Shown here: positions 3,076 through 32,801 of the stretch, in pieces
Layout of the letters: each line of letters opens with the position of its first letter
How positions within the stretch are numbered: the stretch's first letter is position 1
DNA from: Acidobacteriota bacterium
Lineage (GTDB): Bacteria > Actinomycetota > Acidimicrobiia > Acidimicrobiales > Microtrichaceae
NCBI GenBank assembly: GCA_003577145.1
Contig: QEUP01000014.1
Location: 1 to 64,000 of the forward strand
Direction: 5' to 3'
Length of the DNA: 64,000 nucleotides
Made by a program: the position numbers and the translations under genes
The notes under the pieces: model-generated
Seen by the model: only the letters and a program-made list of their open reading frames with translations
Told to the model about the DNA's origin: nothing
The model's database searches: none

Positions 3076-4563
3076 TCAGCCGATGACTGTTTCACGGCCA
3101 CCCACGGCGTATGCGTGCAGACGCTTCTGGTCGTCGACGTTGAGGAGCTCGATGAGATCGAACACGGGGCGGCCTTCACCTCGCATGACCCGGAGAGCCT
3201 GATGCCCAGAGGTCCCCTTCGCAGGAGCGTCGGTCGTCAGCAGCACGAGCGGCATTCCCTCACCACCGTTCTGCACCTGGCTCTCGTGGAGCACCGCGGC
3301 CTTACCGAGTGATCTCCACAGCGTGTCGGTTCGGCGGAGTCCGGCGCGGTTCGACGTGAACGCCCCGGACACGTCGAACGCCCAGTCGTTTCCGATCTTG
3401 TCTGTCGCCACGAAGCTCAACACGACGCCGAGGCCTCGTGGCTTCACCTCGGCGCGGATGTTGTCGAACCCGCATGTTCGCAGTAGCACCTCGGCGACCT
3501 CACGGGCCTGGCGACCCTCTCGGACCGCACGAGCCTGCAAGTCAACCGAATCATCGGTGGGGGCCACCGCAGGAAGCTCGACTCGGAATGCCGTGCTCGG
3601 ACCGCTCGGTGCTTCCTCGATCCAGTCGTGCTCCTCTGCGATGCGCCGCCTCGCGATGGCCACGTACTCCGCATCTGTGTCGAAGCCGAGATAGTGACGC
3701 TCGGCTCGAACAGCTGCGACGGCCGTGCTACCAGAACCGATGAACGGGTCGAGCACGGCGTCGCCCTCGTACGTGTAGAGCTCGATCAGGCGCTTCGGGA
3801 GCTCGACAGGGAAGGGCGCAGGGTGGCCGACCCGAGTGGCGCTCTCAGGCGAGATCTCCCAGAGATCGGTCGTGGCCTCCATGAACTCGTCTCGCGAGAT
3901 CGTGGCGGTGGACGGAAGGCCCCGTTCGAGCCGCTGCACCGGGGTGAGGGCGCGATCGAACCGGCCCTTGCTCGCGATGACCACACGTTCAGTGATGTCG
4001 CGAAGCACTGGATTGGACGGTCGCTGGAACGTGCCCCAGGCACAGGAGCCACCAGCGGCGCGCCCCTTCCACCAGATGACCTCACCCCGGAGGAGCAGAC
4101 CGAGGTCCTGGAGGATCTCGGCGACGTCGCCCGACAGCGAGCGATACGGACGCCGGCCCAGGTTCGCGACGTTGACCGCGATCCGGCCACCGGGCTCCAG
4201 TACTCGCTTGCACTCAGCGAAGACGCTGCGGAGCAACTCGAGGTACTCGAAGTAGTCGGCGGGAACACCGCCGACGCCGAGATCCTCCTCGTACTGCTTC
4301 CCGGCGAAGTACGGCGGCGACGTCACCACGAGCGCCACCGAGTTGGAGACGACCTTCGTCATCTTGCGCGCGTCGTCGTGGTAGATGACATCGACCTCGG
4401 CGGGCGGGTTGATGGTCATGTCGGTCGAGATCTCCGGTGCGACAAACCGGTCGTAGAACGCCGAAGCGTCGTGGCCCTCGCGGCGCCCGGAGCCGAAGTT
4501 CGCAGTGGAGGTGGGGCCTCGTCCACGCCCGCTTCGGGCGGTCGACAGCGGTGTGACGGTCAC
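3076..4563 (-). CDS. Site-specific DNA methyltransferase (beta class) with C-terminal extension
   Basis: The protein has 495 residues. Motif IV TSPPY is at residues 81-85 and the SAM-binding motif DPFIGSGST is at 270-278. This order is that of beta-class N6-adenine/N4-cytosine methyltransferases (DpnII/MboII-type). The core ends near 310. Residues about 340-495 form an additional alpha/beta domain with LGVVLSFVATDKIGNDWAFDV and a run PLVLLTTDAP; a nuclease-like fold is possible but not proven. Translation is coupled to the upstream RHH gene: its TGA overlaps the GTG start. No separate restriction endonuclease gene is adjacent. It probably arrived with the mobile segment. Confidence 0.8.
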   Translation of the reverse strand: MTVTPLSTARSGRGRGPTSTANFGSGRREGHDASAFYDRFVAPEISTDMTINPPAEVDVIYHDDARKMTKVVSNSVALVVTSPPYFAGKQYEEDLGVGGVPADYFEYLELLRSVFAECKRVLEPGGRIAVNVANLGRRPYRSLSGDVAEILQDLGLLLRGEVIWWKGRAAGGSCAWGTFQRPSNPVLRDITERVVIASKGRFDRALTPVQRLERGLPSTATISRDEFMEATTDLWEISPESATRVGHPAPFPVELPKRLIELYTYEGDAVLDPFIGSGSTAVAAVRAERHYLGFDTDAEYVAIARRRIAEEHDWIEEAPSGPSTAFRVELPAVAPTDDSVDLQARAVREGRQAREVAEVLLRTCGFDNIRAEVKPRGLGVVLSFVATDKIGNDWAFDVSGAFTSNRAGLRRTDTLWRSLGKAAVLHESQVQNGGEGMPLVLLTTDAPAKGTSGHQALRVMRGEGRPVFDLIELLNVDDQKRLHAYAVGGRETVIG

Positions 4564-4778
4564 GATGTACCCCCTCGCTTCGCGCGTGAACGCTTCGGCG
4601 TCAGGGCGTTGTCCGCACTCGGGAGTCGTTCGAGGTACTCGTCGACTGCCTTGGTGATGAGCAGGTTCGCCGATACGTCCCGATCGCTGGCAGCAAGCTG
4701 CAGACGACGGTGAATCGACTCGGGGAGGCGGACGGCGGTGGCGATCCGCCGCTCGCCGCAGACCTTGGGACGACCCAT
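4560..4778 (-). CDS. Small ribbon-helix-helix DNA-binding protein
   Basis: The protein has 72 residues, starting MGRPKVCGERRIATAVRLPE. TAVRLPESIHRRLQLAASDRD and the following helix (ANLLITKAVDEYLERL) form a CopG/Arc-type RHH fold. The basic tail is KRSRAKRG. Its stop codon overlaps the methyltransferase start by four bases, so the two are one operon, and it may act as the methyltransferase's controller. The start at 4778 is chosen because the domain begins directly after it; an upstream in-frame start at 4832 would add a non-conserved leader. Confidence 0.6.
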   Translation of the reverse strand: MGRPKVCGERRIATAVRLPESIHRRLQLAASDRDVSANLLITKAVDEYLERLPSADNALTPKRSRAKRGGTS

Positions 4779-4821
4779 GGGTCCACCGTAACGAGGCGGT
4801 GTGGCATGAACGCGGATTGCC

Positions 4822-4839
4822 GCGCGCATCAACGCGCGC
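4822..4839 (-). terminator. Possible stem-loop terminator of the GMC oxidoreductase gene
   Basis: GCGCGC, a six-base loop and GCGCGC form a perfect 6-bp stem between the end of the GMC gene (4867) and the RHH gene. There is no U-tract, so this is only a candidate. Confidence 0.3.
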
Positions 4840-4866
4840 TCAGGAGCAGATGTTGTCGGTGGTCGC

Positions 4867-6468
4867 TCACGCCGGGTGCCTGATCATGTCGGCGCATTTC
4901 TCACCGATCATGATCACAGGGGCGTGGATGTTGTTGCTGGTGACGCAGGGCATCACTGAGGCGTCGGCGATCCTGAGGCCGTCGACACCGCGTAGGCGAA
5001 GCTCTGCGTCGACGACAGCCATTGGATCGTCATCGGGGCCCATCTTGCACGTGCCGCACACGTGGTACTCGGTATCGGCATGGTCGCGTAGCGTTTCCTC
5101 GATCTGTCGGGGGTCGTCGCGGTCGTAGTGGATGAGCATGGCCCCGCGGTAGCGGTCGAACGCGCTGCTGTTCATGATGTCGAGCGCGATCTGGGTCCCT
5201 TTCACCAGCGTGTCCATGTCGTAGGGGTGGCTGAAGTAGCGGGGGTCGATCAGCGGCGCTACCCGGGTGTCGGGGCTGGCGAGTCGTAGCTCGCCGATGC
5301 TCTTCGGTCTCGAAAGCAGCAAGTGGGCCGAGTAGCCGTGACCGAGATGTTGCTTGCGGCCGTGATCGTCACCGATGCCGACGATCAGTTCCATCTCCAT
5401 GTCCGACACTTCGATGTCGGGGTTGGTGCGGTAGTAGGCGCCGGACTCCGCGGCGCAGCTCGTCAACAGCCCCGAGCGGCGCTTGCGCCATTCCCACGCC
5501 GCTTTGACCAGCCGTGCGGCCCCGACCGGGGAGAAGCCGACGGTGTCATCTGTGACCAGCGAACGGTAGATCAGGAGTGCCGAGATGTGGTCCTGCAGGT
5601 TCTGCCCGACACCGGGCAAGTCGATCACCGGTGTGATCCCCAGTTCCTGGAGGTGGGCGCCCGGCCCGAGGCCCGACGCCATCAGGATCTGAGGAGTACC
5701 GAACACACCGGCAGACATGACCACCTCGCGGCGTGCTCCCACGGCGCAGGCCTGACCGTCGCGCTGATACTCGACACCGGTGACACGACGCTGCTCGAGC
5801 AGCACTCGGGTGATGTGGGAGCCGGTCCGCACTTCGAGATTGGGTCGGTCCAGGTTCGGATGGATGAACGCAGCGGCGGCGCTGTGGCGCTCTCCGTCCT
5901 TCTGGGTGACCTGGACGTGATAGCAACCATGATGGTCCGCGCCGTTGGGGTCGGCGTTGTAGGGAATGCCCTGCGACTGACAGGCCTCCAGGAAGACCTC
6001 GTTGAGAGGGCTGGGGCTCCGCAGGTTTGTCACGTGCAACGGACCGTCGACGCCGTGGAACGGGGAGTCCCGGTGGATCGCGTTCGCCTCGGACTTCTTG
6101 AAGTAGGGGAGCACGTCCTCGTAACCCCATCCCGTGTTCCCCATGGCCGCCCAGTTGTCGTAGTCCCAGCGGTGTCCACGCGCGTAGATCATGGCGTTGA
6201 TCACGCTCGAGCCTCCGAGCGCCTTGCCACGTGGCTGGAAGCCCCGTCGGCCGTTGAGACCGGTCTGGGGCACGGTCTCGTAACCCCAGCTGTTGATCCC
6301 GAGCGGCATTGCCACCGCGAAACCCAGCGGCGCGCGGATCAGCAGGTCCCTCCCCTCACCGCCCGCCTCGAGCAGACACACCGTGACCGACGGGTCCTCG
6401 CTCAGACGGCTCGCCACCACACATCCGGCCGAGCCACCGCCGGCGACCACATAGTCGAACTCATCCAT
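4867..6468 (-). CDS. GMC-family FAD oxidoreductase (choline dehydrogenase-like)
   Basis: The protein has 533 residues. The N-terminus has the dinucleotide-binding motif VVAGGGSAGCVVASRLSED followed by LLEAGG. The GMC signature KALGGSSVINAMIYARG lies near residue 83. The C-terminus has EYHVCGTCKMG and the second GMC signature around SNNIHAPVIMIGEKCADMI with the FAD-contacting Asn/His region. The family oxidises alcohols to aldehydes, and choline is only one possible substrate. It is transcribed alone. A -10-like TATAGC ends eight bases before the ATG, so the mRNA may be leaderless. The length is normal for the family. Confidence 0.9.
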   Translation of the reverse strand: MDEFDYVVAGGGSAGCVVASRLSEDPSVTVCLLEAGGEGRDLLIRAPLGFAVAMPLGINSWGYETVPQTGLNGRRGFQPRGKALGGSSVINAMIYARGHRWDYDNWAAMGNTGWGYEDVLPYFKKSEANAIHRDSPFHGVDGPLHVTNLRSPSPLNEVFLEACQSQGIPYNADPNGADHHGCYHVQVTQKDGERHSAAAAFIHPNLDRPNLEVRTGSHITRVLLEQRRVTGVEYQRDGQACAVGARREVVMSAGVFGTPQILMASGLGPGAHLQELGITPVIDLPGVGQNLQDHISALLIYRSLVTDDTVGFSPVGAARLVKAAWEWRKRRSGLLTSCAAESGAYYRTNPDIEVSDMEMELIVGIGDDHGRKQHLGHGYSAHLLLSRPKSIGELRLASPDTRVAPLIDPRYFSHPYDMDTLVKGTQIALDIMNSSAFDRYRGAMLIHYDRDDPRQIEETLRDHADTEYHVCGTCKMGPDDDPMAVVDAELRLRGVDGLRIADASVMPCVTSNNIHAPVIMIGEKCADMIRHPA

Positions 6469-6476
6469 GCGCAGAC

Positions 6477-6482
6477 GCTATA
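6477..6482 (-). promoter_or_regulatory. -10 element of the GMC gene, probable leaderless start
   Basis: TATAGC on the minus strand ends eight bases before the ATG at 6468, leaving no room for a ribosome binding site. No convincing -35 is seen. Confidence 0.35.
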
Positions 6483-6600
6483 GGGACGATCGCCGGTCGC
6501 GGTTCGGTCTCGGTGACCGGCGTCGTTGTAGGGGTGGGGACGCGCTCTCCCAATTGGCGCAGACGGGAACCATCTCGGCGCCCGCAAACGTCCAACCTTC

Positions 6601-7290
<690 letters not shown>

Positions 7291-7385
7291 TCCCTGTCCA
7301 CCACGTCGGAGGTCTGGCAGAGGTCGGGTCGGTCGCCCCATCGCCGGGGGGCCGAACCACCAATCCAGCCCGTATAGATCACTTT

Positions 7386-7419
7386 CGCTATTTGGGACAT
7401 AGCGGAAGAGCGCTAGAAT
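7386..7419 (+). promoter_or_regulatory. Promoter/operator of the XRE-nucleotidyltransferase pair
   Basis: TTGGGA (7392-7397) and TAGAAT (7414-7419) are 16 bases apart. An inverted repeat CGCTAT-N7-ATAGCG (7386-7404) surrounds the -35 box, fitting autorepression by the XRE protein. The GTG start at 7426 is seven bases after the -10 box, so the transcript should be leaderless. Confidence 0.55.
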
Positions 7420-7425
7420 GTCAGC

Positions 7426-7764
7426 GTGGTCAGAGCTTCCATCCGGGTCGGCGATGCCGGCGCTGTAGCCGGCCTGATCCGCGCGGCACGAACAGCTGCC
7501 GGTTTGACCCAAGCGAGCCTGGCAGAGCGTCTGGGCACCACGCAGTCGGTCATATCCCGCTGGGAGCGTGGTCGCGACGAGCCGCGGCTGTCGACGTTGG
7601 CTCGGGTCATGCACGCGTGCGGGCACGCGCTGTCCCTTGCGGTCGAGCCTGACGATGTCGACCGGGCACAGATCCGCCAGCAGCTGGCGATGACCCCGTC
7701 CGAGCGCCTCGCGATGGTCACGAACGTCAGCCGTGTGCTGGCAGCGGCACACCGGGTTGGCTGA
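7426..7764 (+). CDS. XRE-family helix-turn-helix regulator, probable antitoxin
   Basis: The protein has 112 residues. A Cro/C1 helix-turn-helix spans about residues 15-70 (LIRAARTAAGLTQASLAERLGTTQSVISRWERG). The C-terminal part is mixed helical (TPSERLAMVTNVSRVLAAA). The GTG start sits at the predicted transcription start, with no Shine-Dalgarno. The stop overlaps the start of the nucleotidyltransferase gene (TGATG), so the two proteins are made together. In known HTH plus nucleotidyltransferase modules (AbiEi/AbiEii-like, MNT-type) the first gene is the antitoxin and repressor. Confidence 0.75.
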   Translation: MVRASIRVGDAGAVAGLIRAARTAAGLTQASLAERLGTTQSVISRWERGRDEPRLSTLARVMHACGHALSLAVEPDDVDRAQIRQQLAMTPSERLAMVTNVSRVLAAAHRVG

Positions 7765-8276
7765 TGCCGGCTCCCCTCGACCCAGAGTGCCTGTTCCGGG
7801 TGCTTCGTGACCATGGCGTGGAGTACGTGCTGGTCGGCGGCCTCGCCGCGGTGCTGTACGGCTCCACGGCACTGACCAACGACGCGGACATCGTTCCTGC
7901 GAGGGATCCCGCCAACTTGGAACGGCTCGGGCAGGCGTTGCGGTCGCTCGATGCTCGGCTGCGCGTGCCCGAGTCACCGGATGGCATCGCCTTCGATCCT
8001 CACCCGTCACTCCTCGATTCGATAGCCACGCTGAACCTCACGACGCGATGTGGCGACCTCGACCTGACGTTCGCGCCAGCCGCCTTGGACGATTACGACG
8101 CCCTTGTGGCCGCCAGCGCGGAGTTCGATCTGGCGGGTTGCCGAGTCAAGGTCGCGGCGCTGCGTGACCTGATCCGATCGAAGGAGGCGGCTGACCGTCC
8201 GAAGGACCGCGCCACCCTCCCGATCCTCTACGCGCTGGAGGAGGAGATCCGACGAGCGGGACGCCGGTCCCCGTAA
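7764..8276 (+). CDS. Nucleotidyltransferase, AbiEii/DUF6036-like probable toxin
   Basis: The protein has 170 residues. HGVEYVLVGGLAAVLYGSTALTNDADIV (residues 14-41) is the nucleotidyltransferase core, with the GG-x9-S motif and the paired acidic residues D-A-D that bind metal. A second acidic site is plausible at GDLDLTF (about residues 97-103). The C-terminal helix ALRDLIRSKEAADRPKDRATL resembles the end of AbiEii-like proteins. The gene overlaps the XRE gene by one base. A toxin or anti-phage role is inferred from that pairing, not from the sequence alone. Confidence 0.7.
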   Translation: MPAPLDPECLFRVLRDHGVEYVLVGGLAAVLYGSTALTNDADIVPARDPANLERLGQALRSLDARLRVPESPDGIAFDPHPSLLDSIATLNLTTRCGDLDLTFAPAALDDYDALVAASAEFDLAGCRVKVAALRDLIRSKEAADRPKDRATLPILYALEEEIRRAGRRSP

Positions 8277-21751: not shown

Positions 21752-22348
21752 GTGAGCTGTCGCATCCTCGTCATCGACAACTACGACTCGTTCGTCTACA
21801 ACCTCGTCCAGTACCTCGGCGAGCTCGGCGCCGAACCGCTCGTGTTCCGCCACGACGCCTTGACCCTCGAAGAGGTGGCGGCCATCGATCCAGACGGCAT
21901 ACTCGTCAGCCCCGGCCCCGGCCGACCCGAGGACGCCGGGCTCTCCAACGCGGTCATCGACGAGTTCTCCCCCGACCGGCCGGTGTTCGGTGTCTGCCTG
22001 GGCATGCAATGCATCGGCCAGGTCTTCGGCGGTCGGGTGATCCGGGCACCCATGGTGATGCACGGCAAGACGTCGCTCATCCGCCATTGCGGCACCGGCG
22101 TGTTCCAGGGCTTGCCGGAACCGCTCGAAGCGACCCGCTACCACTCGCTGATCGTCGAACGCGAGAGCCTCCCCGGGAGCCTCGAGATCACCGCCGAGAG
22201 CGACGACGGCCTGATCATGGGGTTACGCCACCGCGAGTCGATGGCCGAGGGCGTGCAGTTCCACCCCGAGTCGATCCTCACCGTCGGCGGCCACGACATG
22301 CTGCGCAACTTCCTCGACCGGGCCGCCGCCGCGAGGATCGCCCGGTAG
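21752..22348 (+). CDS. trpG: Anthranilate / para-aminobenzoate synthase glutamine amidotransferase
   Basis: The protein has 198 residues. Class I glutamine amidotransferase features are ILVIDNYDSFVYNL at the N-terminus, ILVSPGPGRPEDAG, the nucleophile in FGVCLGMQCIGQ, and EGVQFHPESILT with the catalytic His-x-Glu. It delivers ammonia to chorismate in tryptophan or folate synthesis. In actinobacteria the gene here often serves as pabA/trpG. The GTG at 21752 follows a -10-like TACCCT (21737-21742) by nine bases, so a leaderless mRNA is possible. It faces away from crgA. Confidence 0.85.
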   Translation: MSCRILVIDNYDSFVYNLVQYLGELGAEPLVFRHDALTLEEVAAIDPDGILVSPGPGRPEDAGLSNAVIDEFSPDRPVFGVCLGMQCIGQVFGGRVIRAPMVMHGKTSLIRHCGTGVFQGLPEPLEATRYHSLIVERESLPGSLEITAESDDGLIMGLRHRESMAEGVQFHPESILTVGGHDMLRNFLDRAAAARIAR

Positions 22349-22444: not shown

Positions 22445-23569
22445 TCAGCCGGTGTCGCCTCCAGCGCCGGAGGTATCCGGCGGGGCTTGTGCTTCGGCCG
22501 GTGGCGGCGCCGGTGCCGAACCGCAGGTGACGCTCACGAACGCCGAGGTCGGCACTTCGAGCTCGGCCGGCGGGCTCTGGCGGATGACCCGCCCCGCCTT
22601 GGTCGTGTCGTCCACCAGTTCGTACGCCACATCGTGACCGAGCCCGATCTCGCCCAGCACGGACTCGGCGCTGCTGCACAGCAGGCCCACGAGGTGGGGG
22701 ACCTCCACGGTGGGACGCGGTGCGGACACCACCAGGTTGACCGACGCGTCCTTGGGCAGCTTGGTGCCCGCCGCCGGTTCGACCTCGAGCACCAGGTTCT
22801 CCTCCACGCCTTCGACGTACCTCCTCTCGATCGTGCCCGGCAGCAGGCCTATCCGGCCCACCTCCACGAGGGCCTGGTAGTAGGGCGTCCCGACCAGGTT
22901 GGGCACCTCCCGCGCGGCAGGCCCATCAGAGACCGTGATCGTCACCACCGCTCCCGGTCCGACATCGGCGAAGGGCTCCGGGTTGGTGGTGATGACCTCC
23001 CCGACGCGGACCTCGTCATCGAAGTCGTGAGCCTCCTCCACTATGTAGCCGGCGGCTTCGAGGACGCGCCTGGCCTCGCTGACCTGCTGGCCGACGACGT
23101 CGGGCACGGGGGCTGTCGCCGGCCCCAGGCTGACCCGCAGCGTCACCACCGAGTCCAGCTCGGCGATCGCCCCGCTGCGCGGCTCGTGGCCGAAGACGAC
23201 GTTCTCGGGCACCTCCTCGTTCTCCTCGTAGCTGTACTCCACGAGCAGCCCGAGATCCTCGAGGGTCGACTCTGCCCGCACGACCTCGTAGCCGCGCAGA
23301 TCAGGGACGACCACTTCGGGGATGACGAATACGTCTTCGTCCGAACCGAAGGTCCGCACCAGGCCGAAGACCGCGCCGCCCAGCAGGACGAGCAGCAGCG
23401 TCAGCGACCAGCTGAACGCCAACCGCCGGCCGCGGGGATCGACGACCTCGGGCCGGCCTCTCTCGTAGAGGCGTGCCTCCGGTTCGACCTCCGGTTCGAC
23501 TGCCGGTTCGACTGCCGGTTCGGCGTCGGGCCCGGCCTCGGCCGCGGGGTCCGGCGTCAGCGTCGTCAT
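22445..23569 (-). CDS. Membrane protein with four extracellular PASTA domains, no kinase domain
   Basis: The protein has 374 residues. A cytoplasmic N-terminus with EPAVEPAVEPEVEPE repeats is followed by one transmembrane helix near residues 50-70 (FSWSLTLLLVLLGGAVFGLV). Four PASTA repeats then begin near VVVPDLRGY, APVPDVVGQ, REVPNLVGT and VEVPHLVGL. PASTA domains bind peptidoglycan fragments and lipid II. The start overlaps the stop of the pseudokinase (ATGA), so the two are coupled. It occupies the 3' end of the kinase locus, and may present extra ligand-binding domains for a kinase complex. Confidence 0.85.
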   Translation of the reverse strand: MTTLTPDPAAEAGPDAEPAVEPAVEPEVEPEARLYERGRPEVVDPRGRRLAFSWSLTLLLVLLGGAVFGLVRTFGSDEDVFVIPEVVVPDLRGYEVVRAESTLEDLGLLVEYSYEENEEVPENVVFGHEPRSGAIAELDSVVTLRVSLGPATAPVPDVVGQQVSEARRVLEAAGYIVEEAHDFDDEVRVGEVITTNPEPFADVGPGAVVTITVSDGPAAREVPNLVGTPYYQALVEVGRIGLLPGTIERRYVEGVEENLVLEVEPAAGTKLPKDASVNLVVSAPRPTVEVPHLVGLLCSSAESVLGEIGLGHDVAYELVDDTTKAGRVIRQSPPAELEVPTSAFVSVTCGSAPAPPPAEAQAPPDTSGAGGDTG

Positions 23570-25566
23570 GGCGCTCCCACAGTGATGGTCACTGCGTCGC
23601 CGGGCTCGATGTCGCTTCCGGCGCTCGGCTCCTGCTGGTTCACCCGCCCACGATCGGCCTGGTATCCGTCTGCCTGGACGATCTCGACCTCGAGGCCGGC
23701 GGCGGCGAGCTCTTTCAGCGCCTCCTTCTCGGTGAGGCCACTCACCCACGGCATCCGGGTGGACGGCGGGCCAGCCGAGACGAGGAAGTCGATGCTGGTG
23801 TCGGGTGCGGCAAGGGAGCCGACCTCGGGCGAGACCGCGATGACCATGCCCTCGGGGCTGAGCGCGTTCGGGACCGGCAGCACCTGGCCGAGCTGGAACT
23901 GCGCCTGGCCTATCTCGAGCAGCGCCTGCTCGAAGGCGCCGCCCACGACATCGGGCACCGGCCGGTCCGGTGGGCCCGTCGAGATCGTCAGCGACACCAG
24001 GGTGTCGCCCCGCACCTGACTACCTGCCGGCGGGTCGATCTCGATGACCCGGCCTGCGGCAACGTCGGCGTCAGGCACCCGGAGCACCTGGGTGACGAGG
24101 CCGGAGTCCTCGAGCCGGGTCATCGCTTCGGCCTCGGGCAGGCCGATCACGTCGGGCATGGTGACGATCGACGGTCCGCGGCTCACGGTGATCACGACAG
24201 TCGTGTCGTGGGCGATGACCTCACCCGCAGCGGGCTGCTGGCCGATCACCTGGCCCCGGGTAACGTCGTTGCTGAACGCGAAATTGGCTTCGGCATCGAG
24301 GTCGACCTCCTGCAGCTCCACGACCGCCTGCGCCTGGGTGAGCCCCAGGACCTCGGGCACCTCCGAGCTCGCACCCGGTCCGAAGAGCCAGGCGAACGGG
24401 TTGAGGGTGTGGGCGAAGGCCAGCACCGGGATCGCGAGGGCCACGAATGCCAGGACACCGAAGGTGAGGACCAGACCCGAACGGCTCGGGCCGTACACCT
24501 CGGCGTGGCGGTCTTCCTCGCCTTCCCACTCGGTGGTACCCAGCGTTTCGAGCATCTCGGTCTCAGCGACCACCTCGTCGCCGGCGAGGAAGCGCAACAG
24601 CTCTGCCCTGACCTCCCCGGCCGTCTCGTAGCGACGCCCGGGGTCGCGGGCGAGCAGCTTCATGGTCACCGCCTCGATGGCGCCGGGCAGCGCCGGCCTC
24701 ACCTCCCCGGCGTTGTCACCTTTCTCTTCGGCGCGTTCGGACGCCTCCTCGAGCAGGTCCGAAGGCCAGGTCAACCGGTCGTGCATGCCGCGACGGGGCC
24801 GGTCGGGATGACCGTCTTCGGTCACGAAGGGCGGCTTACCGGTCAAGAGCCTGTACAGCACGGCTCCGAGCGCGAACAGGTCGCTCTGCTCGTCGGCCTC
24901 CCCTCGGGCGGCGCTCGAGCCCCGGCGGATGAACGCCCGGACCTGCTCGGGAGCGATGTAGGCCGCCCGCTCCGGGGTGCGCGACGTGACCGGCCACGGC
25001 CCGAAGCCGGTCACCTTGTGCAAGCCTTCCGGGGTCTCGTACACGACACCGGGGTTGAGGCCACCGTGCACGATCCCGGCCTCGTGGGCGGCTTCGAGCG
25101 CCGCGGCGAGGTCGACGGCGATCTCCGCGGCGGGCTCGGGCGCAAGGGCCTCACCCCGGGAGGTGAGCTCGGACAGGGTCCGTCCCGCGACGTACTCGGA
25201 AGCCACGAAGCAGCCGGTCACCTCGTCGTCCCCGTCGCTGAGCACGCCCCAGTCGATGACCGGCGCGATGTTGGGGTGCCGCAGCTCGGCCGCCTTGGCG
25301 GCCTCGGCCCGGAACTGCTCGTCGAAGGGGACGTGTGGCGCCACCTCGGGATGGACTGCCCGGGCGATGTCACGGGCGCGTCGCCCTACGCGGGCCCTGA
25401 GCTCGTGCTCGTCGGGCAGGCTCACACGGAAGACGCGCACCAACACAGGCCGGTCGAGTTGGCTGTCCCGTGCCACGTACAGCTCGCTGTCACCCTCGGC
25501 GTGCAGGCAACGGTGAAGCTGGTAGCGCCCCCCGACCACGCGCAGCTCACCCGAAGTGACGGTCAT
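23566..25566 (-). CDS. PASTA-domain pseudokinase
   Basis: The protein has 666 residues: a kinase-like domain at about 12-330, one transmembrane helix near 365-388, and four extracellular PASTA repeats. The kinase fold is clear (ELRHPNIAPVIDWG, APEQVRAF, SDLFALGAVLYRLLTGKPPF, LLARDPGRRYET), but the catalytic residues are gone. The VAIK lysine is Arg44 (VLVRVF), HRD is HGG (167-169), the Asn of the catalytic loop is Val, and DFG is GFG (187-189). The glycine loop is degenerate. It should sense muropeptides and act as a scaffold or allosteric partner of the neighbouring active kinase. It ends in four-base overlap with the PASTA-only gene. Confidence 0.85.
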   Translation of the reverse strand: MTVTSGELRVVGGRYQLHRCLHAEGDSELYVARDSQLDRPVLVRVFRVSLPDEHELRARVGRRARDIARAVHPEVAPHVPFDEQFRAEAAKAAELRHPNIAPVIDWGVLSDGDDEVTGCFVASEYVAGRTLSELTSRGEALAPEPAAEIAVDLAAALEAAHEAGIVHGGLNPGVVYETPEGLHKVTGFGPWPVTSRTPERAAYIAPEQVRAFIRRGSSAARGEADEQSDLFALGAVLYRLLTGKPPFVTEDGHPDRPRRGMHDRLTWPSDLLEEASERAEEKGDNAGEVRPALPGAIEAVTMKLLARDPGRRYETAGEVRAELLRFLAGDEVVAETEMLETLGTTEWEGEEDRHAEVYGPSRSGLVLTFGVLAFVALAIPVLAFAHTLNPFAWLFGPGASSEVPEVLGLTQAQAVVELQEVDLDAEANFAFSNDVTRGQVIGQQPAAGEVIAHDTTVVITVSRGPSIVTMPDVIGLPEAEAMTRLEDSGLVTQVLRVPDADVAAGRVIEIDPPAGSQVRGDTLVSLTISTGPPDRPVPDVVGGAFEQALLEIGQAQFQLGQVLPVPNALSPEGMVIAVSPEVGSLAAPDTSIDFLVSAGPPSTRMPWVSGLTEKEALKELAAAGLEVEIVQADGYQADRGRVNQQEPSAGSDIEPGDAVTITVGAP

Positions 25567-25567
25567 G

Positions 25568-27277
25568 TCAGCCGTCGGGCGGAACGACGGAGGACGAGGT
25601 CGTCGACGTGGAGGTGGACGACGTGGAGGTGGACGATGTGGAGGTCGTCTGCGGCACGGTGGTGGTGGTGCTCGGGGGAAGGGTGGTGCTGGTGGTGGTG
25701 GTCGTCTCGGGTCCCTTGGAGACGGTGATCGTGACCGTGGAACCGGGCGCGGCCGCTGTCTCCGCCGGCGGGTCCTGGGAGATGACCGTCCCTTCCTCCT
25801 CGGTCGCCGACGTCTGGCGGCGGACCCTCACGAAGAAGCCCTCGTTCTCCAGGATCTGGCGGGCCTTCAGCTCTTCGAGGCCCTCGACGTCGGGGACAGC
25901 GATGGATTCAGGACCGCTGCTCACCTTCAACTCGATTGTCGAACCCACCTCTGCGTCGGCTCCAGCGCGGGGGTCTTGGCTGATGACGATCCCCTCGGGC
26001 TTGGACTCGTCGGGGGTCGGCACGACGTTGACCACGAAGCCGGCTTCTTCGAGCCGTGAGATGGCTTCGGCTTCGGTGAGATCTACCACGTCGGGGACCT
26101 CGGCCGTCTCGGTGTCGTCCCTCAGGCTCCGCGCGAAGAAGAACAAGGCGGCCGCAAGGCCGAGCAGCAACAGCACGAGGATGGTGAGGAAGATGCCGCT
26201 GCGCTTCGGCGCTTCGGATGGCGCGACGTAGGCGTCGGCGGGCGCCGACGTCGTCTGCGCGATCACCTGGGTGGCGTCGGGGTCGACGGGTACCGGTGCC
26301 GCCATCAGCCCCTCGGCCTGCACCGGTTGGCCGTCGAGGAACCGGGTGAGGTCAGCCTTGAGCTCGTGGGCGTTGGCGTAGCGGTTGGCGGGGTTCTTGG
26401 CCAGCAGCTTCATGGTGATCGCCTCGAGCCCTTCGGGGATCGGCGATTTGGCAGAGGTGGCAGCGGCCGCGGCGCCGGGATCGGCGACGGCCGTCGGGTC
26501 AGCCGCCGTCGGCTGAGCGCCCTGGCCTGCTGTGCCACCGCGAGCGCCAAGCATCTGGGAGGGTCGGGGTGGTGCTTCCTGCACGTGCTTGTAGGCGATG
26601 GCGACCGGCGAGTCCCCCACGAAGGGCGGTTGACCGGTGAGCATCTCGAACAGCACCACCCCGAGGGAGTAGAGGTCGGACCGCCCGTCGACCTTGAACC
26701 CCTGAGCCTGCTCGGGCGAGAAGTAGGTGGCGGTTCCCATGACCGAGCCCGTCTGGGTGAGCTCCTCGTCCGAGGACGAGAGGGCGCGAGCGATGCCGAA
26801 GTCGGCCACCTTCACGTCGCCGGTGCCGGAGAGCAACACGTTGCCCGGCTTGATGTCGCGGTGGACGACGCCCTGATCGTGCGCGAACGCCAGCGCCGAC
26901 GCCACCCCCGAGGCGATCTCGGCCGCCCGCCGGGGGAAGACCGCGCCCTCCTGGCGGATGAGGTCGGAGGCTGACTGGCCCTCGACGTACTCCATGACGA
27001 TGAAGTAGGTCTCGGCTCCGCCGGCCGCCGCTTCGGCACCCCAGTCGTACACCGCGACGATGTTGGGGTGGGTGAGCTTGGCCGCCGCCTGGGCCTCGCG
27101 CCGGAACCGCTCCACGAAGGCCTTGTCGGCGGCGAACTCGGGGTGCAGCACCTTGACCGCTACGGGCCGGTCGAGCAGGCGGTCGCGGGCGAGGTAGACC
27201 TCGGCCATGCCGCCACGCGCGATCCGCCGGTGGATCTCGTAGCGGTCGCTGTAGACCTTCGGTTCTTCCTCGGCCAT
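25568..27277 (-). CDS. pknB: Ser/Thr protein kinase PknB-like, two PASTA domains
   Basis: The protein has 569 residues. The kinase domain is at 12-318 and all catalytic residues are present: RGGMAEVYLA loop, Lys42 in VAVKV, HRDIKPGNVL (Asp141), DFG (159-161) and APE-like SPEQ. An Ala/Thr/Pro insert of about 35 residues (243-278) lies in the C-lobe. A membrane helix is near 361-381, PASTA repeats start near 392 and 459, and the protein ends in a Thr/Ser tail of about 40 residues. It should control cell-wall growth and division. It lies one base upstream of the pseudokinase. Its own -10-like GATAAC precedes a GGAAGGG ribosome site. Confidence 0.9.
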   Translation of the reverse strand: MAEEEPKVYSDRYEIHRRIARGGMAEVYLARDRLLDRPVAVKVLHPEFAADKAFVERFRREAQAAAKLTHPNIVAVYDWGAEAAAGGAETYFIVMEYVEGQSASDLIRQEGAVFPRRAAEIASGVASALAFAHDQGVVHRDIKPGNVLLSGTGDVKVADFGIARALSSSDEELTQTGSVMGTATYFSPEQAQGFKVDGRSDLYSLGVVLFEMLTGQPPFVGDSPVAIAYKHVQEAPPRPSQMLGARGGTAGQGAQPTAADPTAVADPGAAAAATSAKSPIPEGLEAITMKLLAKNPANRYANAHELKADLTRFLDGQPVQAEGLMAAPVPVDPDATQVIAQTTSAPADAYVAPSEAPKRSGIFLTILVLLLLGLAAALFFFARSLRDDTETAEVPDVVDLTEAEAISRLEEAGFVVNVVPTPDESKPEGIVISQDPRAGADAEVGSTIELKVSSGPESIAVPDVEGLEELKARQILENEGFFVRVRRQTSATEEEGTVISQDPPAETAAAPGSTVTITVSKGPETTTTTSTTLPPSTTTTVPQTTSTSSTSTSSTSTSTTSSSVVPPDG

Positions 27278-27409: not shown

Positions 27410-28915
27410 TCAGGCCCCGAGTGCCTCCTCCAGCACTGCTCGGGCGATGGGAGCCGCGACCTGCCCGCCGGTCTGCTCGCTGGCTCCTTCCTGGGCCTGG
27501 ACCAGCACCGCCACGACGACCTCGGGTTCGCCGCCCTCGGGTCCGGCGAAGCCGATGATCCAGGCGTGGGAGGTGGGCGGTTCGGTGCCGAGCTGGGCGG
27601 TACCCGTCTTGCCTCCCACCTCGTAGCCGGGAATCGCCATGGCGTTGGCGGTACCCGACTCGACCACACCGATCATGGCCTGGCGCAGCGTCGAGGCCGA
27701 GGCGCTGTCCATGGCCTCCAACCACTCGCCCTCGTCGTACTCCTCGACGACGTTGCCGTTGGAGTCGCGGATGTCGTGCATGACGTGGGGCCTCATCACG
27801 ACCCCGTCGTTGGCGACACCGGCGGCGACCAGCGCCATCTGCAGGGGGGTGGCGGCCACCTCGTACTGGCCGATCGACGCCTGGGCAAGGGCGGGGGTGT
27901 TCTCATAGATCGTCCCCGGTTCGTCCGAGTCCGGTGGGTCCAGCGCCTCGCCGTAGTCGGTGGGGAAGATCGACTCCGCCGGCGACGGCAGGTCGATCGG
28001 GGGTGAGTCGTTGAAGCCGAACCCCTCGGCCCCCTCGACCATGATGTTCGGTCCCAGGGTCATGGCCCCCATCTCGGCGAAAGCCGAGTTGCACGACGCG
28101 GCCAGGATCTCGAAGAGGGTTCCGCCGCACGAGCTGCCGCCGAAGTTGGAGATCGACTGCGTGGTCAACGGCGGGGTGTACTCGGTCGCCACCGGGTAGG
28201 CGGGCTCGTCCTCGGTGACGAGCCCCGAGTCGAGCCCGGCCGCGGAGGTGACGACCTTGAAGGTCGACCCCGGGAAGTACACCTCCTGGTACATCTTGTG
28301 CAGCAGCGGTTTGGTGGGGAACGCCAGGTAGAGGGTCCGAGCGGCCTCGGCTGCCTCGAGGTCGTTGGTGGCCAACAGGTTGGGATCGAAGCTCGGGTTG
28401 CTCCAGAACGCGATGATGCCGCCGGTCTCGGGGTCGAGGGCGACCACCGAGCCCAGGCGGTCGCCGAGCTGTTCCCGGGCCACTTCTTGGACGTCGTGGT
28501 CGAGGGTCAAGGTGACGTCACCGACGTCGTCGTCGTTGACGAAGAGGTCCGAGAAGTTGTCGAACTCGAAATCGAAGGTCTGGCCGGCCAGCTCGTCGTT
28601 GTAGACCTTCTCGACCCCGTCGGCGCCGAACTCGAAGGAGATGTAGCCCGCTACGTGGGCGTACAGCTCCCCCTCGGGGTACTCCCGCTGGAACTCGAAG
28701 CGCCCCGAGGTCTGCACCGAACGGGCCACCAGTTGCCCGTCGATGGTCGAGATGGTGCCCCGGGCCCGGTTGTAGTCGCGTTCGGCAGCACGGTTGTTGC
28801 CGTCGTGCGCGTTCAGCTCTTCGGCCTGGAACACCTGGATCTGGTTCAAGCGGACGAACAGCGCGGTGTACAGCACCAACAACACGACGACGAGATAGCG
28901 CAGGTGCCGGTTCAC
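27410..28915 (-). CDS. pbpA: Penicillin-binding protein PbpA (class B transpeptidase)
   Basis: The protein has 501 residues with an N-terminal membrane anchor (LVVVLLVLYTALFVRL). The transpeptidase motifs are S217-TFK (PGSTFKVV), S274-CN and KTG (436-438, GGKTGTAQ). RGTISTIDGQLVARS is the typical class B opening. It crosslinks septal or lateral peptidoglycan together with the SEDS partner just upstream, whose stop it overlaps by four bases. The order rodA-pbpA-pknB matches mycobacteria, where PknB and PbpA are functionally linked. Confidence 0.9.
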   Translation of the reverse strand: MNRHLRYLVVVLLVLYTALFVRLNQIQVFQAEELNAHDGNNRAAERDYNRARGTISTIDGQLVARSVQTSGRFEFQREYPEGELYAHVAGYISFEFGADGVEKVYNDELAGQTFDFEFDNFSDLFVNDDDVGDVTLTLDHDVQEVAREQLGDRLGSVVALDPETGGIIAFWSNPSFDPNLLATNDLEAAEAARTLYLAFPTKPLLHKMYQEVYFPGSTFKVVTSAAGLDSGLVTEDEPAYPVATEYTPPLTTQSISNFGGSSCGGTLFEILAASCNSAFAEMGAMTLGPNIMVEGAEGFGFNDSPPIDLPSPAESIFPTDYGEALDPPDSDEPGTIYENTPALAQASIGQYEVAATPLQMALVAAGVANDGVVMRPHVMHDIRDSNGNVVEEYDEGEWLEAMDSASASTLRQAMIGVVESGTANAMAIPGYEVGGKTGTAQLGTEPPTSHAWIIGFAGPEGGEPEVVVAVLVQAQEGASEQTGGQVAAPIARAVLEEALGA

Positions 28916-30222
28916 GCCGCCGCCCTCTCGCGCTCGGGTCTGGTGGCGGGCCGGCGTGAGGACTGGTCGGAGATCCTCACCAGCAGCGCCAGCAGCACGT
29001 AGTTGGCCAGCAGTGACGACCCGCCGTAGCTGACGAAGGGCAGGGTGACACCGGTGAGCGGGAGCAGTCGCACCACCCCGCCGATGATGATGAAGGCCTG
29101 CACCGCCAGCAACGTGGTGAGACCGGTGGCGAGGAGCTTGTCGAAGGGGTCCGACGCTCTCGCGGCGATGCGCAAACCCGAGCCGGTCATCAAGAGGAAC
29201 GCGACGATCACCGCAGTGGCGCCGAGCAGGCCGAGCTCCTCACCGATGGCGGCGAAGATGAAGTCGGTCTCGACGACGGGGATCTTCCAGGGGAACCCGA
29301 GCCCCAGCCCCGTCCCTGCCAGGCCTCCCCACGCCATCGCGTAGGTGCCCTCGATGATCTGCCCGGCGGTGTCGGGATCGGCCCAAGGGTCCAGCCACGC
29401 CGACACCCGCACCTGGACGTGGGAGAACCGCGTCCAACTGAACCAGGCGCCCAGCCCGAACAGCACGAAGCCGGTCGCCACGTACCAGACCCTTTGGGTG
29501 GCGATCCAGAGCATGACGAGGAACAGCACGAAGAACAGCAGGGCCGAGCCGAGGTCGCGCTCGAACATCATGACCACCAGGGACACACCCCAGGCGATGA
29601 CGACGGGTGCGAGGTGCTTGGGATCGGGGATGTGCACCGGGCCGAGCTTGAAGGTCGCCATGCCCAGCAGCTCGCGCCGCTCGACGAGGTAGCCGGCGAA
29701 GAAGACGGCGAAGGCGATCTTGGCGAACTCCCCCGGCTGGAAGTTCACCGGGCCCAGCGAGACCCAGATGCGGGCTCCGCCGATCTGCTGGCCGACCGAC
29801 GGGACCAGGGGCAACAACAGCAGCAGCATGGCGAGGAGGCCCACGGTGAAGCGGTAACGCTCCAACAGGCGGGTCCGACGGACGACGAGCAGGGTCGCGA
29901 TGTACAGGCCGATCCCGACCGCGGTCCACATGGCCTGGAGCCCGGCGAGATCCTCGTCGAGGCGGGCGATGAACACGTAGCCGATGCCGTTGAGCAGTGC
30001 CGCCAACGGCAGCAGCAGCCCGTCGGCGTCGGGAGCGAGGAAGCGGTTGGCGATGTGGGCGCCCAGCAGCAGCACCAGCACTGCCACCAGGAAGGGGACC
30101 ACATCGGCCGGGAGCACGTCGCTGCGCCCGAGCGAGGCGAGGATGTACGCACCGATCGTTATAACCGCACCCAACAAGATGAGGCCGAGCTCGGTGTTGC
30201 GTCTCACGCGTCCAGGCATCAC
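28912..30222 (-). CDS. rodA: SEDS peptidoglycan glycosyltransferase RodA/FtsW
   Basis: The protein has 436 residues with ten or more hydrophobic helices. SEDS signatures are WVSLGPVNFQPGEFAKIAFAVFFAGYL, VVMMFERDLGSALLFFVLFLVMLW with the essential Asp, and LPFVSYGGSSLLANYVLLALL near the C-terminus. It polymerises glycan strands from lipid II. The name rodA is chosen because the gene sits between pstP and pbpA as in Mycobacterium; FtsW would be indistinguishable by motif. It overlaps pbpA by four bases. Confidence 0.9.
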   Translation of the reverse strand: MMPGRVRRNTELGLILLGAVITIGAYILASLGRSDVLPADVVPFLVAVLVLLLGAHIANRFLAPDADGLLLPLAALLNGIGYVFIARLDEDLAGLQAMWTAVGIGLYIATLLVVRRTRLLERYRFTVGLLAMLLLLLPLVPSVGQQIGGARIWVSLGPVNFQPGEFAKIAFAVFFAGYLVERRELLGMATFKLGPVHIPDPKHLAPVVIAWGVSLVVMMFERDLGSALLFFVLFLVMLWIATQRVWYVATGFVLFGLGAWFSWTRFSHVQVRVSAWLDPWADPDTAGQIIEGTYAMAWGGLAGTGLGLGFPWKIPVVETDFIFAAIGEELGLLGATAVIVAFLLMTGSGLRIAARASDPFDKLLATGLTTLLAVQAFIIIGGVVRLLPLTGVTLPFVSYGGSSLLANYVLLALLVRISDQSSRRPATRPERERAAA

Positions 30223-30231
30223 TCCCGGACC

Positions 30232-31530
30232 TCACCCGGGTGTCGCCGGAGTCGTCGCCGGGGTCGTCGCCGGAGCGCCTGTCGTGGTGCTCGCCTCGGG
30301 TTGGGCCGTCGTCGACTCGGAGCCGGCGTTCATCTCGTCGATCTGGTCTTGCAGGTTCTCGAGGTACTGGCGGGCGTCGTCGATGGAGGCCTGGTCCTTG
30401 CCTTGCTCCAAAGCGTCGAGCTCGGCAGGGGGGATCTCGTCGAGCGTGATGCCGCTGGCCTCCTCCACGGTGGGGTCGAACCACAGCACCCCGCCGGGAC
30501 GGCCCTGGAAGATGACGACCTCCTCGCCGTCGAGCCCCACGAAGTAGGTGTTCCTGGCGTACCAGCCCACCGCGGCGATCACGAGACCGATCAGAGCGAG
30601 CATGGCGACCATGAAGAGCCCCACCCGCCAGGTCAGGCGTCGGGCTCGTTCCGGCTCTGCTTCTCCCTCTTCATCCTCGTCGATTGCGGGCCGGTGCTCC
30701 TCGTCGGGGGCTGCGGTGAGGATGGCCGGCATGGCAGCCACGCCCTCCGCTGAATCAGAGCGTTGCCGATCCAGCGACGAGGCGCCTGTGCCGACCACCG
30801 CCGGGCTGGTATCGCTTTCGACGACGTCCACGACCACGCAGGTGACGTTGTCGCGCCCGCCGTGCTCGTTGGCCCGCCTGATCAGCTCGTGGGCGACCTC
30901 GGTGGGGTCCTCCAGGCGCCGCAGCACACCTGCGATCTCGTCGTCGTTGAGCTCGTTGAACAGCCCGTCGCTACAGAGCAGGAACCGGTCCCCCACACCG
31001 GGGGTCACCTCCCAGGTGTCGGCCTCGACCGTGGGTTCGATGCCCAGCGCCCGGGTCAAGATGTTGCGCTTGGGGTGGTTCTCAGCCTCCTCGGGACTGA
31101 GCTGGCCGTCGCGCACCAGGCTCTCGACGAGGCTGTGGTCCTCGGTGAGCTGGGTGAAGTCCTCGGTCGTGTACAGGTACACGCGCGAGTCGCCGACGTT
31201 GACCACCGCCACCCGTTGCTCGAAGTCGGTGAGGATCCGGCCGATCGCGCACAGCGTCGTACCCATGCCGGCCAGCTCGGGGTCGTCGGCTGCCATCTCG
31301 AACACCGCGGTGTTGGCGTCGCGCACGCCGGCCACGAGGGCATCCAGTGAGGGCTCGGCGACTGATTCCCGCAGCACCCGCAGCGCCTGCTCGGAGGCCA
31401 CCTCGCCCCCCCGGTGGCCGCCCATGCCGTCGGCGACCGCGTAGAGCCCGTCGGAGGTCAACATGGCGTCCTGGTTCACCGTCCTGACCCGTCCGGTGTC
31501 GCTGGCAGCCCCCACGACGAAGTCGATCAC
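30232..31530 (-). CDS. pstP: PP2C-family Ser/Thr phosphatase PstP
   Basis: The protein has 432 residues. The PP2C domain (1-240) has metal-binding motifs SDTGRVRTVNQDAML, YAVADGMGGHRGGE, CSDGLFNELND and GGRDNVTCVVVDV. A linker, one membrane helix (VGLFMVAMLALIGLVIAAVGWYA) and an extracytoplasmic Thr/Ala/Pro-rich tail follow. It reverses phosphorylation by the PASTA kinase. It is followed ten bases later by rodA and preceded by fhaB, the standard actinobacterial order. Confidence 0.9.
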   Translation of the reverse strand: MIDFVVGAASDTGRVRTVNQDAMLTSDGLYAVADGMGGHRGGEVASEQALRVLRESVAEPSLDALVAGVRDANTAVFEMAADDPELAGMGTTLCAIGRILTDFEQRVAVVNVGDSRVYLYTTEDFTQLTEDHSLVESLVRDGQLSPEEAENHPKRNILTRALGIEPTVEADTWEVTPGVGDRFLLCSDGLFNELNDDEIAGVLRRLEDPTEVAHELIRRANEHGGRDNVTCVVVDVVESDTSPAVVGTGASSLDRQRSDSAEGVAAMPAILTAAPDEEHRPAIDEDEEGEAEPERARRLTWRVGLFMVAMLALIGLVIAAVGWYARNTYFVGLDGEEVVIFQGRPGGVLWFDPTVEEASGITLDEIPPAELDALEQGKDQASIDDARQYLENLQDQIDEMNAGSESTTAQPEASTTTGAPATTPATTPATPG

Positions 31531-31564
31531 GGACCGTCTCCCGTAGTCGGATCCTCGAGGCGGC

Positions 31565-32023
31565 TCATCTGAGCTCCATGACCGTGTTGCCGATCTGCAG
31601 CTTGTCGCCGGGCCTGAACACCATCCTGCCGGTGACCTTCTTGCGATTGAGATAGGTGCCGTTGGTGGACCCGAGATCCTCCACGAAGAACTGGCCGTCC
31701 TGCTGGAACACCCGGGCGTGGATCTGGGAGGCGTAGGTGTCGTCGACGGTGACGGTGCAGCCGTTGGCCCGCCCGATGGTCACCTCGCCGGTCACCGCGA
31801 AGGCCATCCCCTTCAGCGCGGCGGGGGCAGTGACGGTGAGTCGGCGGGCGCCCTTGACCTTCTTGGCCCGAGATCTCCGGGCGGGCTTGGCGGCCTTGGC
31901 GGCGGTTTCGCTGCGCTTGGGTGGGTTGACCTCGGCCCACACCGCCCGCAGCACGCGCAGGAAGAAGAGGTACAGCAGAGCCAGCAGGCAGATCTTGAGG
32001 ACGGTGAGCAGTTGCTCGGGCAC
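31565..32023 (-). CDS. fhaB: FHA-domain protein FhaB (FipA-like)
   Basis: The protein has 152 residues. A membrane helix sits near the N-terminus (LKICLLALLYLFFLRVLRAV), followed by a basic Lys/Ala linker. The FHA domain is about 75-152 (VTIGRANGCTVTVDDTYASQIHARV, EDLGSTNGTYLN) with the phosphothreonine-binding Arg, Ser and Asn. It reads the kinase's phosphorylation state at the division site. GTG at 32023 is favoured because TAGGCT ends seven to eight bases upstream; a TTG at 32056 is the alternative. Confidence 0.85.
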   Translation of the reverse strand: MPEQLLTVLKICLLALLYLFFLRVLRAVWAEVNPPKRSETAAKAAKPARRSRAKKVKGARRLTVTAPAALKGMAFAVTGEVTIGRANGCTVTVDDTYASQIHARVFQQDGQFFVEDLGSTNGTYLNRKKVTGRMVFRPGDKLQIGNTVMELR

Positions 32024-32132
32024 CGGGACCGAGCCTAAACCACCGGACCCCGACAACCGCAGGCAACCACTCCCCGCCTGACCCGGGCTCGCTCGGTCGC
32101 GCCATCCGAGGATCTCGGGTCCGAGAAACGCG

Positions 32133-32801
32133 TCATGAGGCCTGGAAGTACATCTGGGTGTTGCCGAAGGTGAGCTGGTCGCCGTCTGCGAGTCGCTGTT
32201 CGGTGACCCGCACGCCGTTGACCCTGGTGCCGTTGGTGGAGCCGAGATCGACGACGACGTAGCCGTCGCCTTGGGGCCTGACCTCGGCGTGTCGCCGGCT
32301 CACGTTGGGGTCGGCCAGCACGATCGTCGAATCGGGCTGACGACCGACCGTCACGACGTAGTCGCCGAGGGGTACCCGCTCGTTGCTCGGCAGGATGATC
32401 GAGCCCGCGCCGGTGCCCCCCTCACCCTCCTTCATCTTCCCGAGCACACGGAAGGCGCCGGGCCGCAGGTTCTCGTCGACGACCATCTCGACTTCGACGG
32501 GGCCCATGAAGGTATAGCCCTCGTCACGTGCGTAGTCGCGGGCGGCGTCGGCGAGCTCGCGCCGAAGAGCACCTTCGATCTCGGCGAGCTGGGAGTGGTC
32601 GGCCTCGCTCAACCAGAACGTGAAGTCGTTGGGGACCACGGCCCGGCCGCCGACGCCGACCGAACGGCGATCGTCCATCTCCCGGGTGAGCTTGCGGCCC
32701 AGTTCGACGGGTCGCAGCCCGGAGCGGAAGATGCGCGAGAACGCGCCCTCGACCATGCGCTCGAGGCGCCTCTCGAAGCTCTTCAATCCCACGCCCGACA
32801 C
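32133..32801 (-). CDS. fhaA: FHA-domain protein FhaA
   Basis: The protein has 222 residues. An N-terminal DUF3662 domain (about 1-105: KSFERRLERMVEGAFSRIFRSGLRPVELGRKL) is joined by a short linker to a C-terminal FHA domain (TVGRQPDSTIVLADPNVSRRHAEVRPQ, DLGSTNGTRVNG). Mycobacterial FhaA has a much longer linker, so this is a compact form. In mycobacteria FhaA binds the MurJ-associated pseudokinase MviN/CwlM pathway and modulates peptidoglycan synthesis. It heads the block next to tRNA-Leu. Confidence 0.85.
   Translation of the reverse strand: MSGVGLKSFERRLERMVEGAFSRIFRSGLRPVELGRKLTREMDDRRSVGVGGRAVVPNDFTFWLSEADHSQLAEIEGALRRELADAARDYARDEGYTFMGPVEVEMVVDENLRPGAFRVLGKMKEGEGGTGAGSIILPSNERVPLGDYVVTVGRQPDSTIVLADPNVSRRHAEVRPQGDGYVVVDLGSTNGTRVNGVRVTEQRLADGDQLTFGNTQMYFQAS

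Follow-up and report, generated by a model that had tools for sequence, protein, structure and literature searches.

A PASTA receptor with a degenerate kinase domain encoded beside a shortened PASTA kinase in a cell-wall gene cluster

What might a kinase domain without catalytic residues do in a receptor that is encoded next to an active kinase? This question is raised by the window (the whole stretch of 64,000 nucleotides that was analysed), in which three open frames stand in tandem on the minus strand and are transcribed in the order K, PK, T. All three products carry PASTA repeats, two in K, four in PK and four in T according to Pfam and equally to a whole-genome search. The sequence-only reading of this DNA had described an active kinase, a PASTA pseudokinase and a kinase-less PASTA protein in tandem, and both the frames and the domain counts agree with that description. 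The three genes and their conserved neighbours are as follows.

25568..27277, minus strand: K, a PknB-type PASTA kinase of 569 aa (Pfam, whole-genome search, NCBIfam)
23566..25566, minus strand: PK, an M-type PASTA receptor (see below) with an N-terminal pseudokinase domain, 666 aa
22445..23569, minus strand: T, a kinase-less membrane protein with a transmembrane helix and four PASTA repeats
27410..32801, minus strand: the conserved neighbours pbpA, rodA, pstP, fhaB and fhaA
21304-21708, minus strand: crgA, conserved neighbour
21752-22348, plus strand: trpG-like class-I glutamine amidotransferase, conserved neighbour

The tandem is flanked on one side by crgA and the trpG-like gene and on the other by pbpA-rodA-pstP-fhaB-fhaA and a tRNA-Leu. 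Domains were identified for these neighbours (CrgA, PbpA, RodA/FtsW, PP2C for PstP, FHA, FhaA_N plus FHA, and the tRNA-Leu), which bears out the flanking order as first read. The fhaB gene is the frame at 31565-32056, and no domain is present in the frame at 31527-32105. The start of T is an ATG at 23569, which is residue 61 of a longer frame; this start codon and the stop of PK overlap as ATGA, and PK itself starts 1 base past the stop of K. Because of this spacing and this overlap, K, PK and T are probably translationally coupled.

K has all its catalytic motifs intact (VAVKV, HRDIKPGN and DFG). It scores 543.5 bits against the NCBIfam model PknB_PASTA_kin (NF033483), above the cut-off of 450, and the VAIK lysine, the HRD aspartate and the DFG aspartate are all present, as in PASTA Ser/Thr kinases of the PknB/Stk1/PrkC type. 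The protein has one transmembrane helix, PASTA 1 and 2 only, and a Ser/Thr-rich C-terminal tail.

25715..26101, minus strand: both PASTA repeats of K, the orthologues of PASTA 1 and 2 among the four in relatives

Since these two repeats match the first and second repeats of other K proteins best, it is, as judged by repeat matching, exactly the distal PASTA 3 and 4 that were lost from K of the window, with the Ser/Thr-rich tail retained. The tail itself (TSTSSTSTSTT...) is encoded at 25571-25690, and a similar one follows the last PASTA repeat in most K proteins of the family.

In PK, by contrast with K, all three canonical kinase motifs have been lost.

24538..25527, minus strand: pseudokinase domain of PK, residues 14-343 (Pfam Pkinase, 50.5 bits)
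25435..25437, minus strand: Arg44, replacing the VAIK lysine
25060..25068, minus strand: HGG, replacing HRD, residues 167-169
25000..25008, minus strand: GFG, replacing DFG, residues 187-189

These three changes had been noticed at first sight and are confirmed in the DNA. Further losses add to them: the catalytic-loop lysine has become Asn171, the catalytic-loop asparagine Val174, and a glycine of the glycine loop is replaced by glutamate. In addition, the activation loop is deleted directly after GFG, and 25 residues are inserted between beta-3 and alpha-C. With the 36 K kinases of the order as reference, 104 alignment columns are at least 95% conserved, and PK keeps 54 of these and has lost 50. 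The losses are not evenly spread. At ten catalytic or activation positions (the glycine-loop Gly, the VAIK Lys, the Arg and Asp of HRD, the catalytic-loop Lys and Asn, the DFG Asp and three activation-segment residues) PK keeps none, against 54 of the 94 other invariant positions (Fisher p = 4e-4). Anchors of the fold are retained, namely the alpha-C Glu, the HRD His, the Pro and Glu of APE, the alpha-F Asp and the C-lobe Arg. Also retained are all of Arg10, Leu33 and Asp76 in PknB numbering (R14, L37 and D105 of PK), which we take to be the back-to-back dimer face of PknB. No stops or frameshifts occur across the 330-residue domain.

An AlphaFold2 model of the domain, with kinases as the alignment, has the complete fold of a kinase (mean pLDDT 82, pTM 0.83), in which the insert is modelled as an extra helix. 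The nearest solved structures are PknA and PknB (Z 30.5 and 29.1); Foldseek agrees and includes the PknB mutants L33D and D76A among its matches. PDB matches found by sequence are likewise PknB and PknA, and identity to PknB is 28-35% over about 260 aligned residues. PK nevertheless reaches only 329 bits against NF033483, under the cut-off of 450, and falls outside the PASTA Ser/Thr kinases; a predicted kinase fold with all three canonical motifs lost would place it, by sequence and fold, among the bacterial Ser/Thr pseudokinases. On these sequence features, PK is truly a degenerate PASTA pseudokinase.

The locus was also read in about 40 related genomes. In outgroup families of the order, loci on contigs that reach far enough show the arrangement crgA-trpG-K-pbpA-rodA-pstP-fhaB-fhaA with a single PASTA kinase, and none of the outgroup-family loci read has a pknA adjoining K. 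Two outgroup kinases, L099 and L106, sit outside this locus. In the family of the window, T-M-K-pbpA is found in 18 of 18 genomes with a contig that spans the three genes, and crgA-trpG precede T where the contig reaches far enough. M and T of the family each consist of a transmembrane helix and four PASTA repeats without a kinase domain, some M proteins beginning right at the transmembrane helix, and family K proteins have four PASTA repeats. A search of 397 genomes of the order with an M profile found M confined to the window's family. The loci of relatives thus agree with the earlier view that a layout with extra PASTA receptors differs from the mycobacterial pknB-pknA. The proposal of a remodelled pknB-pknA pair does not hold, as the outgroup loci read contain one kinase and no adjoining pknA, and M and T are family-wide.

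Two kinase-less four-PASTA proteins between trpG and the kinase can be seen, for instance, in L077, L081, L085 and L112, and are absent from the outgroup families read. No description of this arrangement was found in the open-access literature. In L095 (G024), at 3603-7826, the K, M and T genes are all split into short overlapping frames; these breaks probably reflect indel errors in the assembly and not decay of the genes.

PK itself can be assigned to the M group through its ectodomain.

23575..24363, minus strand: the four PASTA repeats in PK, each matched to its counterpart among M1-M4
24412..24489, minus strand: transmembrane helix of PK and M-type juxtamembrane motif (..FAHTLNPFAWLFG..)

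A tree of ectodomains resolves three clean groups, with PK among the M proteins (support 98), T of the window among the T proteins (99) and K among the K proteins (96). Within its group, PK is sister to all other M proteins and forms the deepest M branch (support 81). Compared repeat by repeat, all ten PASTA repeats agree in their best-match assignment, although some margins are small: P1-P4 of PK correspond to M1-M4, P1-P4 of T to T1-T4, and P1-P2 of K to K1-K2. The TLNP juxtamembrane motif is common to PK and the M proteins of the family, and an M profile from which PK was held out gives PK 278 bits, compared with at most 235 for K and at most 199 for T proteins. PK thus has an ectodomain and transmembrane helix orthologous to those of M, and it has the M position between K and T. 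Orthology of PK with M, as an M that carries a PknB-like domain, is well supported by these comparisons. It is also the exception among the M proteins seen, all others of which lack a kinase domain.

No domain like that of PK was found in the remaining 32 family genomes, in 396 further genomes of the order, or in the class and phylum samples, which partly overlap the family and order genomes; matches in relatives are ordinary kinases only, at about 130 bits or less. The proposed check, whether Arg44, HGG and GFG are conserved in relatives, has no sequences to work on, because the domain is missing from every relative sampled at family, order, class and phylum level. Other genomes of the order with two PASTA-kinase-like matches were also checked for pseudokinases. 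HRD and DFG are both intact in each second match whose motif can be read, and the frame L141 has DFG but gives no match to the HRD search pattern.

How old, then, is the degenerate domain? A tree of kinase domains was tried for dating and fails to place PK, which sits on a branch of 9 substitutions and can join any of three alternative clades (AU p about 0.12 each). A count of shared rare residues was used in place of this phylogeny. At 82 sites, K of the window carries a residue that all other K proteins rarely have, and PK has 2 of these 82. The background for sharing rare residues is 4-6%, and related kinase pairs share 12-74%, so PK lies at or under background. Because the private changes of K are shared only at this level, PK is not a recent duplicate of K; by this count, its domain is a branch that split from the K line before the window lineage arose or at about that time. 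Several family-type residues are found in the domain. Silent sites between PK and K are near saturation, an estimate that is noisy and that points to an old domain. Simulations of neutral decay support some constraint without being decisive at low divergence, where the simulated identity is not far below the observed 43%. Overall, these comparisons disfavour recent decay of PK.

The simplest origin, and the favoured one, would be a duplication of the whole K gene in the ancestor of the family, after which catalysis decayed and most of the family lost the domain, with the window lineage retaining it. Sequence comparison shows three of the steps: the ancestral locus of the order had K as its single PASTA kinase, the family ancestor acquired M and T as two additional PASTA receptors within this cluster, and K of the window lineage lost its distal PASTA 3 and 4. 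On the favoured ancestry, M would be the duplicate of K in which the kinase domain became non-catalytic; the domain would then have been deleted from M in most of the family, leaving the window lineage with the pseudokinase of PK. PK may be a non-catalytic co-receptor, with four PASTA repeats that would bind cell-wall fragments and a pseudokinase domain that would contact the domain of K through the N-lobe back-to-back face (Arg10, Leu33 and Asp76). In this way, PK might set the activity of K; allosteric activation of the kind known from PknB and PknD dimers is the most likely mode, with inhibition as a possibility. T would be a further receptor of the same set. This explanation as a whole, from the duplication of K to PK as a non-catalytic co-receptor, is given about even chances.

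The close spacing of the three genes counts in favour of this explanation, and several observations from mycobacteria fit such a role. Dimerisation through the N-lobe allosterically activates PknD and PknB (PMC3601408). PknB of Mycobacterium tuberculosis needs PASTA4 and the full length of its ectodomain, and its proposed ligand site is the linker between PASTA 3 and 4 (PMC6428115). Since K of the window lacks PASTA 3 and 4, a four-PASTA partner with a dead and perhaps dimerising domain would be its natural complement, and the earlier suggestion that sensing and catalysis are divided between partners is plausible for the same reason. The narrower proposal, that a PASTA pseudokinase senses ligand and allosterically drives a K with a shortened sensor, amid a set of three receptors in one cell-wall cluster, is rated less probable than not. 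Against a partner role, the rest of the family does without the PK domain. Moreover, the loss of half of the kinase-invariant positions implies that constraint on PK has been relaxed, and the 25-residue insert before alpha-C could hinder its dimer face. The kinase domain of PK comes from a single genome, and support for selection on a partner function can therefore not come from conservation among relatives.

These last points may also be read in another way: the kinase domain of PK could be a relic on its way to deletion, in a protein that acts through its transmembrane helix and PASTA repeats only, as M does. A kinase-less M suffices in all other members of the family, 50 of the 104 invariant positions are gone, and neutral decay comes close to the observed identity if divergence is low. 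However, a mere relic would have persisted over 330 residues without a stop or frameshift, its losses are focused on catalysis with the dimer-face residues left intact, and the near saturation of silent sites relative to K indicates an old domain. We consider a relic a minority reading. Slightly less is to be said for a later fusion, in which M was originally kinase-less and a domain from an old copy of K joined it in the window lineage. The number of events would be about equal to that of a duplication plus deletions, the domain is found in the window lineage only, and the failure of the kinase-domain tree to place PK leaves room for a fusion. Yet the count of 2 of 82 private residues would require a donor copy at least roughly as old as the window lineage, and, with the PK ectodomain as the deepest M branch, a single ancient gene is the simpler explanation for both halves. 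Such a fusion is hence somewhat improbable.

A further alternative, which can be compatible with the co-receptor explanation, concerns the PK linker at 24514-24552. Just before the transmembrane helix, this linker has a Thr-rich acidic stretch (..LETLGTTEWEGEE..), a possible site of phosphorylation and FHA docking. K might phosphorylate it and so recruit FhaA or FhaB, much as mycobacterial PknB phosphorylates the pseudokinase protein MviN, to which FhaA binds (PMC12599244, PMC3601408); fhaA and fhaB are in the same cluster as K and PK. Nevertheless, the motif was spotted by eye, without relatives for comparison, and the architecture of MviN differs, being a MurJ flippase plus a pseudokinase, so a scaffold of this type is an unlikely reading. 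Finally, some proteins classed as pseudokinases are active, for instance through WNK-like lysine shifts, and PK might use a shifted lysine or other metal ligands; this is very improbable, as the activation loop and the catalytic-loop Lys and Asn are gone, and a shifted catalytic residue is unlikely because the N-lobe strands offer no lysine and HGG and GFG no aspartate.

Among the closest known systems is PknB of Mycobacterium. It has in common the fold, a transmembrane helix with extracytoplasmic PASTA repeats, the pbpA-rodA-pstP-fhaB-fhaA neighbourhood and R10, L33 and D76. In contrast to PknB, PK lacks every catalytic residue and the activation loop, and the locus differs in a K with two PASTA repeats instead of four, in having no adjoining pknA and in two extra PASTA receptors. 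Compared by description, the ActPs3 (MviN) pseudokinases have the activation-loop deletion in common with PK; in MviN, however, PASTA repeats are absent and the domain is joined to a MurJ flippase, as in M. tuberculosis, whereas PK has no MurJ part and its domain lies close to PknB. The ActPs2 pseudokinases resemble PK in having the beta-3 Lys changed to Arg, inserted residues before alpha-C that follow beta-3, and a transmembrane helix after the domain, but they have Asn for the HRD Asp, a DFG deletion and about 250 extra activation-loop residues (PMC12599244). With its HGG and its deleted loop, PK falls outside ActPs2 as published (PMC12599244). No PASTA pseudokinase was found described in the open-access literature searched.

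An analogy may be drawn with receptor/pseudokinase pairs of the HER2-HER3 type, where a kinase-dead receptor is thought to bind ligand and to act on its active partner through a domain-domain face, although those receptors are unrelated and their dimer geometry is different. How PASTA ligands control kinase activity is debated, between dimerisation and localisation only (PMC3601408, PMC6428115). A family with one kinase and two adjoining kinase-less PASTA receptors is a natural test of receptors that act in trans, and the window lineage adds to this, on one of these receptors, a kinase domain that has lost catalysis but whose dimer face is intact, as well as a K without its distal PASTA repeats. 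Comparison across the order suggests a path from a single kinase, through a kinase with a pseudokinase, to a kinase with plain receptors. PK looks like a sensing partner of K, part way from a true kinase to a receptor with no kinase domain.

PASTA repeats also occur elsewhere in the genome of the window. A second kinase with four of them is encoded in a 733 aa frame at C56:31277-33334, and two further repeats lie within a 341-aa frame at C23:82932-83297.
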